Shown here: positions 21,104 to 24,845 of the stretch, one piece after another
Layout: the number at the start of each line of letters is the position of its first letter
How positions within the stretch are numbered: position 1 is the stretch's first letter
Assembly: GCF_030811455.1 (NCBI RefSeq)
Contig: NZ_JAUSQU010000001.1
Coordinates: 8,556,001 to 8,620,000, forward strand
Direction: 5' to 3'
DNA length: 64,000 nt
Origin: Streptosporangium lutulentum
GTDB lineage: Bacteria > Actinomycetota > Actinomycetes > Streptosporangiales > Streptosporangiaceae
The notes under the pieces: model-generated
What the model saw: the letters and a program-made list of their open reading frames with translations, nothing else
Told to the model about the DNA's origin: nothing
The model's database searches: none
Made by a program: the position numbers and the translations under genes

Positions 21104-21523
21104 GGTCTCCCTGTTCCTTGGGTTGCCTGAAGTTCGGAACGATGAGGGGAAGGAGGTCGTGTCCGGCGAAATGGCATGCGTGAAGTGGTCTCCGTATGAT
21201 CCATTTCCGCAGGCCGGACGGCTGGTTCTTGGAGTCGGCGATTTCGAGTGTTCGTGATATCGCGCGGCTCCAGAGAAGAAAGTGCTCCTTGACATGGAAT
21301 TATCTTGATGATTCTGCAGGCTTGTACTCGCCTGGAGGATACAAAACGTTTTCCCCGGATGTTCGCAAACGCGATCTGGATCAATGGTCAAAGCCTGTGA
21401 AGTGATCCCAATGATAAATAAAAGGCCAAGTGGGATTTTAAGGATAAAGCGGATTTATCAGGACGCGCCGGAGATTAGCCGGTTGTCGTTGCTTGGGATT
21501 CATCCGATTCGCCTCGGCCGGAC
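21104..21523. other. AT-richer intergenic region before the IS island
   Basis: GC drops clearly here (for example aatgataaataaaaggc near 21410). It must carry the promoter of the secreted protein, but no consensus -35/-10 pair is convincing. It marks the edge of the atypical region 21.2-23.2 kb. No gene is supported. Confidence 0.5.
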
Positions 21524-21712
21524 CAGGGTCGAAGGCTCTTGCTTCATGAGACCGAGTAGCTGAAAACCGTCTGCGGGATGGCTGCGGTAGTGATCGGTAG
21601 CGGCGGCGATGTTGGTCCAGCCGATCAGGCGGGCCAAGCCGATGACCAGGTTCCAGAAGCCGGCCTCGTCAAGCCCGCGTGTGTCCCACCAGCCGAGAAC
21701 GCTTCGGCCCTG
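21524..21712 (-). mobile_element. 189-bp internally deleted ISAs1-type element (MITE-like)
   Basis: The minus strand begins at 21712 with CAGGGCCGAAGCGTTCTC, identical to the right-end repeat of the complete element at 23495-24845. It ends at 21524 with the related CAGGGTCGAAGGC. Between them one frame keeps the last 35 or so residues of the transposase ([20 protein letters not shown] and LLGL). The internal gene body is gone. No matching target duplication is seen outside the ends. It could still be moved by the transposase at 23642, which is inference. Confidence 0.75.
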
Positions 21713-21889
21713 CCGTATGAGATGACACCATATTTGACACCCACAGGGCGTAGCCGGGGTGAGCTGGCCAGCGCCCCTATTGCCCTTTTTCGGGCTAAGG
21801 GAGGTAATTGCCGCAGATATCTCGGATAGGAAGGCGTTGACGAACGTCAACACCCCTGGGAAGCTCGAAACAAGAGGTGAGGAGGAGCG

Positions 21890-22543
21890 ATGGAGTACGA
21901 GTTCCGGTTCGTAGTCACAGGTGCATCCGTGGACGACGTCGGGATCGTAGACCTGCTCTGCCGTGATCTTGACGCGATGCTGTTCCGCGGGGGAGGCGTT
22001 GATCTGCTCGACATCGCCATGAACGGGGAGAACGTCCTAGAAGCTGCGATGGCGGCTGCTCGAACGGTTGTCGAACTTGTACCAAGTATGCGCTTGCTGC
22101 ATCTCCATAGGGATCTGGTCGGCATACCCGAGATCGCCGAGCGTGTTGGGGTAACGAGGCAAAATGTTCACCAGTGGGTTAATGGTGAGCGACGCAATGA
22201 CGCCTCCCCATTTCCATCGCCCGAAGGTACGGCAGGCCGCGCATCGGTATGGCTCTGGGTAGAAGTAAACAACTGGCTGAAGCAGCACAGGATGGGCGAC
22301 GAGGTCAACCTACCAAATCGTTACGAGATGTCCGATATCGATTCGGCGCTTAATCATGAACTGCATCTCAGGACCAAGCTCTCCATAGATCGATGGCGCC
22401 GGAATCGACTCTTTGGCGTAGCGACCCTCTATAGCGCGAATCTAGAGATCGACGAAACCGAAGATGAGCTTCAAGTCGAAGATGAGTTTCAGCTGACATG
22501 GGGCGTCGACGCATCTGTTAAGTATAAGGCTGCCATGCAATGA
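21890..22543 (+). CDS. Helix-turn-helix protein, first gene of a pair with a SecB-like chaperone
   Basis: The protein is 217 residues; GTGAGGAGGAGCG precedes the ATG. The N-terminus ([20 protein letters not shown]..., FRGGGVDLL) is a ferredoxin-like domain seen in small actinobacterial DNA-binding proteins. Residues 80-125 ([20 protein letters not shown] then WVNGE) form a helix-turn-helix of the MerR/AlpA type with [10 protein letters not shown] at its end. The C-terminal 60 residues ([17 protein letters not shown]...) are unusual, acidic and beta-like. GC is well below the window average, and IS sequences flank the pair. It overlaps the next gene by ATGA. It may be the regulator or antitoxin component of the module. 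Confidence 0.75.
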
Positions 22544-23064
22544 GCGCCGAGGGCAACGCAAGGAAATTAACGGCAGAGGAGCTTGAGTCAGTACTTGAGC
22601 TCCGACAGATTTACTTCTTCGAAATTTCCAGCCGACGCTGGGGGTCGAACCCAGGGTCCGCGGAAGTTGCACCCGAAGCCGACGAACACAACCTACAGGT
22701 CATGAATAAATTAGAAAAGGAGCGCCTATCCGTCCGGGCCAGAATGGAAATCAAGACTACGCAGGCCCAGATCATTGTTGACGTTGCCGCAATCTTCTCG
22801 CTGGAGGAGGGCGGTTTATTCCTATCTGCGGAAGAAGATGGACCCGACGAGCCCTCCGAATCTGACGTCTTCCTAGAAGAGGAGACCCTCAAGCAATTCA
22901 TGGAGGAAGTGGGAGTTCCGGCACTGTTTCCGTTCATCAGAGAATCTGTCCATAGTGCGGCAAGGAGAATCGGAGTAAAGGCGCCCATAATTGGCCTGTT
23001 GAAGCCTGGTGGAGTGACGCTGAAAGCAAACGCTCTAAAACATGATTTAGATTCATTGTCATGA
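22540..23064 (+). CDS. SecB-like chaperone protein
   Basis: The protein is 174 residues. The core has the SecB layout: a long strand pair (LSVRARMEIKTTQAQIIVDV), a third strand with AAIFSLEEG, then FMEEVGVPALFPFIRESV, the helix that in SecB reads CPNILFPYAREC, and finally the proline-rich VKAPIIGLLKPGGV, corresponding to SecB's LNLAPVNF. SecB is a proteobacterial export chaperone; actinobacterial SecB-like proteins (Rv1957) protect antitoxins in toxin-antitoxin-chaperone systems. This gene is coupled to a helix-turn-helix gene (ATGA) and no HigB-type toxin is adjacent, so it is either a variant TAC system or a new pair. Low GC and IS flanks suggest acquisition. Confidence 0.65.
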   Translation: MSAEGNARKLTAEELESVLELRQIYFFEISSRRWGSNPGSAEVAPEADEHNLQVMNKLEKERLSVRARMEIKTTQAQIIVDVAAIFSLEEGGLFLSAEEDGPDEPSESDVFLEEETLKQFMEEVGVPALFPFIRESVHSAARRIGVKAPIIGLLKPGGVTLKANALKHDLDSLS

Positions 23065-23494
23065 TGATTGATTCAAATCAAACTTTCCTGCCAGAACCTC
23101 AGTGCCTGTACACGGGCTCTTCCCGCCCTCGCAGGTGAGCTAATCCGGACTAGCTATGAGTGGGCACCGTACCCTGCATGGCACCAGGGCCCCGGCGTAT
23201 CGAGGATTTGATGCGTTGAGGGTTGGTTGTTCATAGGGAGAACAGGGTCAAGAGGCGGTGTGGGGCGTAGCCGTAGTGGCGGCGGGCGTGTGCGATATTG
23301 CTGTGGCCTTGTTGCCGGAATGCGCCGATGACCAGGTTGCGGATCGCGGCCATGACGTGCGGGAGCTGTCCGGTGCGGACCTGGCCGGCGTCTTCGCCAA
23401 AGGTGACATCACGGACGTAATGCTCGCGATTTTCTACGCCCCAATGCGATCGGACGTAATGATTGAGGTGCTCGGGTCCGGCCAGGTCGGCGGG

Positions 23495-24845
23495 CAAGGC
23501 TGAGGCGTTCTCGGCTGCTGAGACGGTCGCAGCCCTGCAGCGGGCTGGCAGTAGAGGCCACCCCGATGCGGAGATGACAAACGCGACCCCTGATGATCGT
23601 CGGTGTCTAGCCAGTCGATCAAGAACAGGGGCCGCGTTCGCGTGCCATCATTCCCGATCAACGTGCTCGCCCGCCACTTGGAGCACGTCCCCGCTTTCGA
23701 CCCATCGACCGATCTGCCCGCGCTGGCCGAGGTACTGGGCACCCTGCCCGACCCACGCAGCCACCGCGGACGTCGCTACCGACTCGGCCCACTGCTGGCC
23801 CTAACCCTGCTCGCCGTACTCAGCGGAGCCACCTCCATAGCGGCGATCAACAGATCCATCCACGGATACGACCCGGACATCCTGTCTCGTGCCGGGCTCC
23901 CCGGCACCGTTCGCCTGGCCGCCAGCACCCTGCGGCGACTACTCGCCCGCCTGGACGGCGACGCCTTCGACACCGCGACCGGCACCTACCTGGCCACCCT
24001 CGCCGCCGGCGGCCCGCCCGCCACCGACCACCCCGAAAGCCGACCACCGCTGACCGGCCTGGCCATCGACGGCAAGACCCTACGCGGCAGTCGCACCGCC
24101 AACGGCACGGTGCACCTGCTGGCCGCCTTGCGCCACGACACCCAGACCGTCGTCGCCCAACGCCAGGTCACCGCCAAGAGCAACGAGATCCCTGCAGTTG
24201 CGCCCCTGCTGTCCGGCCTGGACCTGTCCGACGTGGTAGTCACCGCCGACGCCCTGCATACCCAGCACGCCCATGCCCGCCAGATCATCGACTCCGGCGG
24301 CCATTACCTATTCATCGTCAAAGGCAACCAGCCCACCTTGCACCGCCGGCTCAAGGCTCTGCCCTGGCGCCACGCCCTGCTCAACGACCGCACCGATACC
24401 CGCGGCCACGGCCGCCGCGAGATCCGCCGCATGAAGATCTGCACCGTCCGGCCCGGCCTGCCCTTCCCCCACGCCGCCCAGGCCATCCAGGTCAAACGCC
24501 GCCGCACCGACCGCCGCACCGGCAAAACCACCATCGTCACGATCTACGCGATCACCAGCCTGCCGCCCGGCCGCGTCACCCACGCCCACCTCGCCACACT
24601 GATCCGCGGCCACTGGAGTATCGAGGCCCTGCACCACATCCGCGACGTCACCTACCGCGAAGACGCCTCACGCGTTCGGACCGGCACCGCCCCACGGGTC
24701 ATGGCGAGCCTGCGTAACCTGGCCATCGGCCTGGCCCGCTTGATCGGCTGGACCAACATCGCCGCCGCCACCGATCACTACCGCAGCCACCCCACGGACG
24801 GTCTTCAGCTACTCGGTCTCACAACATGAGAACGCTTCGGCCCTG
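23495..24845 (+). mobile_element. Complete 1,351-bp ISAs1-type insertion sequence
   Basis: Ends are imperfect inverted repeats: CAAGGCTGAGGCGTTCTC at 23495 and CAGGGCCGAAGCGTTCTC reading inward from 24845 (22 of 30 bases agree over the longer ends). The target GGTCGGCGGG is duplicated exactly at 23485-23494 and 24846-24855. It carries one intact transposase and inserted into the related transposase gene of the outer element. Confidence 0.9.
23642..24829 (+). CDS. ISAs1-family DDE transposase, intact
   Basis: The protein is 395 residues from the GTG giving [17 protein letters not shown]; a GTG at 23603 would add 13 residues. The N-terminal domain ([20 protein letters not shown]) is the DDE_Tnp_1-associated domain. 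The catalytic triad is in [19 protein letters not shown] and [18 protein letters not shown]. The C-terminus [20 protein letters not shown] is the family ending also found in the 189-bp derivative upstream. No frameshift is seen, so it is probably active, and it may act on the small derivative in trans. Confidence 0.9.

Follow-up and report, generated by a model that had tools for sequence, protein, structure and literature searches.

A helix-turn-helix gene and a SecB-like chaperone gene of Streptosporangium lutulentum as the probable remainder of a toxin-antitoxin-chaperone module

We analysed a stretch of 64,000 nucleotides of the Streptosporangium lutulentum genome (NZ_JAUSQU010000001.1, positions 8,556,001 to 8,620,000; hereafter the window), in which a gene for a helix-turn-helix (HTH) protein of 217 amino acids overlaps by four nucleotides a gene for a SecB-like protein of 174 amino acids on the same, forward strand (Table 1). 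This pair most likely represents two of the three parts, antitoxin and chaperone, of a toxin-antitoxin-chaperone (TAC) module whose toxin gene has been lost here. Evidence for this comes from relatives of the pair, in which toxin-like, antitoxin-like and SecB-like genes stand in a row in 11 of 12 opened loci, the order being a small PDC-M06A/HicA-like open reading frame (ORF), a palindrome, a PDC-M06B-like HTH gene with a tail, and the SecB-like gene. In these relatives the module is best read as a TAC system whose toxin and antitoxin are of the PDC-M06 type, with toxicity, chaperone dependence and phage defence being presumed. An earlier note on this DNA had described an overlapping HTH and SecB-like gene pair in a low-GC island flanked by insertion sequences, and this description held in each part: both ORFs are real, their GC content is 0.55 (HTH gene) and 0.52 (SecB-like gene) versus 0.69 in the window, and transposase sequence lies to the left and to the right of the pair.

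Searches with the single protein recovered relatives in 2 of 149 genomes, its own included, and in 8 of 72,556 plasmid records, all from Rhodococcus; the same scan of genome contigs found none. With alignment A1, relatives were recovered in 9 of 341 genomes of the family and 2 of 396 genomes of the phylum (both counts including the genome of the window), in 2 of 54 genomes of one related genus, and at four loci in named genome contigs and one in viral contigs. The phage search matched 12 of 50,697 records, all of them Gordonia phages. Five of the eight Rhodococcus records and four of the 12 phage records were opened. Taken together, an HTH gene followed by a SecB-like gene was found at 12 distinct opened loci on chromosomes, Rhodococcus plasmids and two phages, namely the window, L002 (same genus), L041, L048 ([Actinomadura] parvosata subsp. 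kistnae), L049 (Sanguibacter suaedae), the Rhodococcus plasmids L033-L037, and the Gordonia phages Horus (L067) and Agueybana (L068); a viral contig (L055) is equal in length to Horus and carries its three proteins. These are distinct places and not independent events, since L033 and L034 share one small protein. Identity of the HTH proteins to that of the window is as low as 28%, and the four-nucleotide overlap is present in 11 of the 12 loci (the exception is L037; for L033 it assumes that translation begins at an ATG 5' of the annotated one). The small toxin-like ORF lies directly 5' of the HTH gene everywhere except in the window. Because the pairing recurs in 12 distinct loci, the coupling of the two genes is more than chance, and the survey of homologues revealed consistent and not unrelated neighbours.

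Both Horus and Agueybana, which are temperate, carry the complete three-gene set between repressor and integrase. The small ORF of Horus shares four nucleotides with the repressor gene, which makes its expression in the lysogen likely; one to five repressor-linked genes are expressed in three Gordonia lysogens, including that of Blueberry (PMC6426606). Blueberry itself has a TAC-like set different from the PDC-M06-SecB set, and by eye Suerte and Blueberry show an XRE-like antitoxin with a different upstream ORF. Among the other SecB-like matches, visual inspection placed SecB-like genes behind XRE-like proteins, preceded by HigB-like or unknown ORFs, in L042, L043, L045, L047, L050, L051 and L052, and showed no XRE-like partner for the SecB-like match in L046. 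In L047 (503-1510) the SecB-like domain, 3' of the XRE-like ORF, is extended by about 190 C-terminal residues.

The absence of the toxin gene is, judging from the compared loci, a loss local to the window's genome. Homology between the window and L002 (blastn, 21825-22018) starts, beside a transposase remnant in the window, at base 788 of the toxin-HTH region of L002, whose toxin ORF ends at base 789. No PDC-M06A-like toxin adjoins the pair in the window, and a six-frame profile search of the window for a toxin remnant gave a best E of 0.6. A remnant in 21661-21824 was rejected: when this segment was aligned locally with the L002, L048 and L041 toxin genes, shuffled sequences did as well in 303, 160 and 445 of 500 cases, respectively. 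A YCP-like trace noticed on visual reading was also given up, and no trace of a toxin rose above the shuffles. The sole clear match of a toxin profile search of the genome lies in another PDC-M06 pair (C1:6539245-6539945; L010, L057), which encodes proteins of 85 and 181 amino acids without SecB. Since the window contains neither a toxin-like ORF nor a remnant of one, we do not file it as a complete TAC system; with the toxin gone, the pair most likely persists as an antitoxin that represses its own gene, accompanied by its chaperone. The earlier note had proposed a TAC variant or possible defence module, or else a toxin-less chaperone-dependent regulator. The first proposal is largely supported by the relatives, 11 of the 12 loci having the toxin-like ORF and some residing on temperate phages and plasmids; the second is not needed, because the absence of the toxin is local to this genome.

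The palindrome GTTGAC-N4-GTCAAC occurs once in the window (0 in 100 shuffles) and at one place in the 10.6-Mb genome, 38 bases before the ATG of the HTH gene. Exact copies are present in 9 of 65 loci, which represent six places: the window (L001, L038), L002 (L039), L048 (L040), L018, L019 and L022, and in the five relatives the site is located between the toxin-like and HTH genes. L041 has the palindrome with one mismatch within a prolonged toxin ORF, L049 has the counterpart GTTGTC-N4-GACAAC, and L034, L035, L036 and L055 have the half site TTGACAAC at the same place (two to three mismatches), a match that is weak by itself; the half site was also seen by eye in Agueybana. No match within three mismatches was found at that place in L037, L053, L016 and L054. 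Position and uniqueness are as expected for autorepression by an HTH protein presumed to bind this site. A promoter scan of 21400-23300 found none. We infer a promoter with its -35 element inside the palindrome, from which the antitoxin and chaperone genes would be transcribed independently of the toxin gene; E. coli hicAB has a HicB-repressed promoter whose transcript gives HicB but not HicA (PMC10865869). Both ORFs and the palindrome have stayed intact despite the toxin loss, as would also suit a self-standing regulator, that is, a two-gene sensor in which an HTH autorepressor is gated by the SecB-like protein via its folding state and no toxin is needed, and antitoxin-chaperone (AC) cases without toxin are mentioned in PMC4257090. 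We consider this unlikely, however, as the toxin-like ORF is kept in all relatives among the 12 loci and the palindrome, with its single place in the genome, points to no further target gene.

The small ORF of the relatives was identified by PADLOC, and not by sequence searches of Pfam, NCBIfam and PDB. PDC-M06A matched the small proteins of L049 (E 7.8e-8), L034 (3.1e-4), L002 (0.0013) and L037 (0.0077), and the PADLOC HicA-like model matched that of L022 (5.3e-7); Pfam HicA had no match for the three small ORFs scanned. A first toxin profile built from five sequences matched 12 of the 30 loci L003-L032 at E <= 1e-3, and a broad profile 16 of 30, a count that is partly circular because this profile was built in rounds from the same loci; the doubtful fragments of L006, L007, L012 and L058 that it had taken in were removed before final scoring. 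The similarity of the small protein to HicA is weak, and its phage-borne copies are situated in the immunity region, so one might think of a protein that is not a toxin and forms, with the HTH and SecB-like proteins, a regulatory or RNA-binding complex, e.g. a lysogeny or plasmid regulator. We regard this as quite improbable: the PADLOC family belongs to a candidate defence pair, one member is matched by the HicA-like model, and the secondary structure of the small protein is predicted as helix-strand-strand-strand-helix, the succession described for HicA (PMC10865869).

The presumed antitoxin of the window matches the PADLOC candidate defence family PDC-M06B at E 6e-16 over residues 39-159 (L034 HTH protein: 3.7e-10; no curated cut-off is given for the PDC-M06 models), which is its best family; all Pfam HTH families remain under their cut-offs (best PF15943 YdaS, 22.6 of 30 bits; HTH_3, E 0.028), and HicB models do not match. 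Beyond the HTH part, all nine SecB-linked partners measured (window, L002, L048, L041, L034, L035, L049, L037 and Horus, out of 12) carry tails of 41-62 residues. The SecB-less relative L054, 55% identical over residues 1-159, ends at residue 159 without a tail, and in the SecB-less L018, L019 and L022 the HTH protein has a longer, different C-terminal extension that is alike in all three (L022: no Pfam match at E <= 0.01). The extension had been called unusual and acidic; the tail is in fact common to the relatives and only its acidity is peculiar to the window, whose last 62 residues contain 12 D+E and 8 K+R, versus 7/10, 8/9 and 7/8 in the three nearest relatives. With these three the tail shares an RWRR-x-R motif, which is missing from the other five measured tails; Trp and Arg are key ChAD residues (PMC6377645). 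Horus gp52 ends in LAA and the L049 protein in FAA, the former like CmdA, where LAA is a ClpXP signal (PMC11618068); the SecB-less members L012, L015 and L020 also end in AA. The tails of the nine SecB-linked partners and the lack of one in L054 fit the C-terminal extension as the candidate segment bound by the chaperone.

A SecB fold is predicted for the 174-residue protein, as the earlier note had supposed: its structure model has as top structural match the M. tuberculosis SecB-like chaperone Rv1957, and in a fold search of PDB all 18 chains at E <= 0.001 were SecB or Rv1957. By sequence the relationship is faint. Pfam SecB (PF02556) scored 13.6 bits (E 0.065) with a cut-off of 26, none of four members tested reached this cut-off (L002, L034 and L037 gave no match at all), and no PADLOC model matches the protein. 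In a PDB sequence search with a SecB-like profile, interferon-gamma chains (E 1.9e-5) ranked ahead of Rv1957 (0.027); we dismiss them as chance, since both matching stretches are weak alone (0.45 and 0.59) and only SecB tops the fold search. Because none of the four members reaches the cut-off, surveys by PF02556, such as that of PMC4257090, are expected to miss this branch. That the protein is a general or export chaperone merely adjoining an HTH gene is very unlikely, for although the TAC SecB proteins examined to date can stand in for SecB in an E. coli secB mutant (PMC5105189) and L018, L019, L022 and L054 have the HTH gene without SecB, the order of the two genes is kept at all 12 loci despite the divergence of the HTH proteins, on phages and plasmids as well, and with the overlap in all loci except one.

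In the tree of HTH proteins (FastTree, midpoint-rooted, calculated without L001, L026, L029, L033, L039, L040, L056 and L057) the SecB-linked proteins fall into one clade (support 0.99) together with L053, L018, L019, L022, L016 and L054. Within it, two SecB-linked groups are seen, that of the window (1.00) and a Rhodococcus-phage-Sanguibacter group that includes L053 (0.85). Either an early gain of SecB followed by loss or replacement, or two gains, would be compatible with this topology. The viral contig L053 (3835-4359) has a PDC-M06A-like ORF and an HTH gene followed, with a four-nucleotide overlap, by an ORF of 174 amino acids without resemblance to SecB, for which Pfam gave no match at E <= 0.01. 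In L016, two PDC-M06B-like HTH genes stand in tandem (616-1176 and 1405-2154), and the toxin profile found no toxin-like ORF beside them.

For the TAC module we propose the following working. The small PDC-M06A/HicA-like protein of the relatives would be an RNase toxin, and in intact relatives the tail would make the antitoxin dependent on the SecB-like protein. As long as the chaperone is free, the antitoxin would fold, block the toxin and repress its own promoter; once the chaperone is occupied by phage or misfolded proteins, the antitoxin would be degraded and the toxin would arrest growth. The module may thus be a kind of phage defence. More tentatively, and with some doubt on our part, PDC-M06 could be a toxin-antitoxin defence family of which one clade became chaperone-addicted via a SecB-like sensor and spread on temperate phages, plasmids and chromosomes as a three-part system that senses phage, the tail serving as a socket for exchangeable sensors and the window pair being an anti-addiction or anti-defence element directed at mobile elements of this kind. 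In other members of the clade the place of the sensor would be taken by the non-SecB third gene (L053) or by a domain fused to the C-terminus of the HTH protein (L018, L019 and L022).

Known TAC systems are M. tuberculosis HigBA1-SecB-TA, M. methanica HicAB-SecB, Vibrio MqsRA-SecB and G. lovleyi HigBA-SecB (PMC5105189), whose antitoxins need the SecB-like chaperone through a C-terminal extension (PMC5105189, PMC6377645, PMC11618068); 52 of 688 SecB proteins in a PF02556-based survey were found with toxin-antitoxin genes or an antitoxin alone, and termed TAC or AC (PMC4257090). The pair in the window resembles these systems in that a SecB-like gene follows that of a presumed, C-terminally extended antitoxin and Rv1957 is the closest solved fold, and its relatives share the order toxin, antitoxin, chaperone. 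It differs in that the presumed antitoxin is PDC-M06B-like and probably not one of HigA, MqsA and HicB, the families named with SecB-like chaperones (PMC5105189), that the small toxin-like protein of the relatives is not recognised by Pfam HicA, and that the window lacks a toxin. PDC-M06 provides the matches for the HTH protein (B) and for the relatives' small ORF (A), but is listed in PADLOC as A and B only, whereas the SecB-linked HTH proteins are tailed and the window has no A. The anti-phage system CmdTAC of E. coli, in which the chaperone is sequestered by a phage capsid protein so that the antitoxin is degraded (PMC11618068), is similar in its SecB-like chaperone and in the C-terminus of its antitoxin; however, CmdT is an ADP-ribosyltransferase, the HTH protein of the window lacks a terminal LAA, and terminal AA also occurs without SecB. 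Finally, hicAB operons place a small dsRBD-like protein upstream of an HTH protein and have a palindrome (PMC10865869), an arrangement like that of the relatives, whose small protein may have a dsRBD-like fold, but here the HTH protein does not match HicB, a SecB-like gene comes third and the likeness to HicA is slight. The accessible text of PMC10865869 on HicA contexts mentions neither SecB nor a chaperone. The CarolAnn defence genes, for which the available text of PMC6426606 names neither SecB nor HTH, were not equated with the PDC-M06-SecB set. In the open-access literature we found no paper on PDC-M06 or on this gene set, subscription papers, which may hold an earlier mention (for example Sala et al. 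2013), being mostly outside this search. The pairing of a PDC-M06-type toxin and antitoxin with SecB was thus not found in print, and we place the module of the relatives as a TAC variant and the window as an incomplete member, an antitoxin-chaperone pair.

Table 1. Features at and around the gene pair (window coordinates)
Feature	Position	Strand	Basis
HTH gene, 217 aa, presumed antitoxin and autorepressor (PDC-M06B-like)	21890..22543	+	ORF; PDC-M06B match
C-terminal extension of HTH protein, residues 156-217, candidate chaperone-binding segment	22355..22540	+	tail comparison; putative binding
SecB-like chaperone gene, 174 aa	22540..23064	+	ORF; predicted SecB fold
Perfect palindrome GTTGACGAACGTCAAC, presumed operator	21836..21851	.	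shared position; putative DNA binding
Left limit of homology to intact relative L002; toxin stop codon in L002	21825..21828	.	blastn
Remnant of DDE transposase gene, 3' end, resembling the gene at 23603-24829	21523..21664	-	blastn and tblastn
Second transposase remnant, 3' of SecB-like gene	23273..23542	-	tblastn
DDE transposase ORF, 408 aa	23603..24829		

Of the transposase sequences beside the pair (Table 1), the left remnant resembles the complete DDE transposase gene closely (blastn 88% over 133 columns; tblastn 84.6% over 39 residues), and the right one more distantly (tblastn 43% over 90 columns). Around the relatives, the three genes on the Rhodococcus plasmids L033 and L036 (6439-12402) adjoin TniQ, TniB, transposase and TnsA-like genes, and might be cargo of a Tn7-like element. 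In Gordonia phages the SecB-like gene is followed at a short distance by an ImmA/IrrE-like ORF (L067, 6454-6876; L068, 7049-7474; L070, 5430-5867); Horus gp50 reaches 21.4 of the 22 bits required by PF06114 (scored as L055), and Agueybana 40 and Blueberry 39 are annotated as metalloproteases.

Our results indicate a branch of the SecB fold that lies below the Pfam cut-off, and Horus and Agueybana, isolated phages of the laboratory host Gordonia terrae 3612, offer natural test cases for the module. If the proposed reading is true, PDC-M06B-like proteins would form a further antitoxin class beside HigA, MqsA, HicB (PMC5105189) and CmdA (PMC11618068), and the candidate defence pair PDC-M06 would be joined to the TAC mechanism, which suggests a competitor for the chaperone as its trigger.
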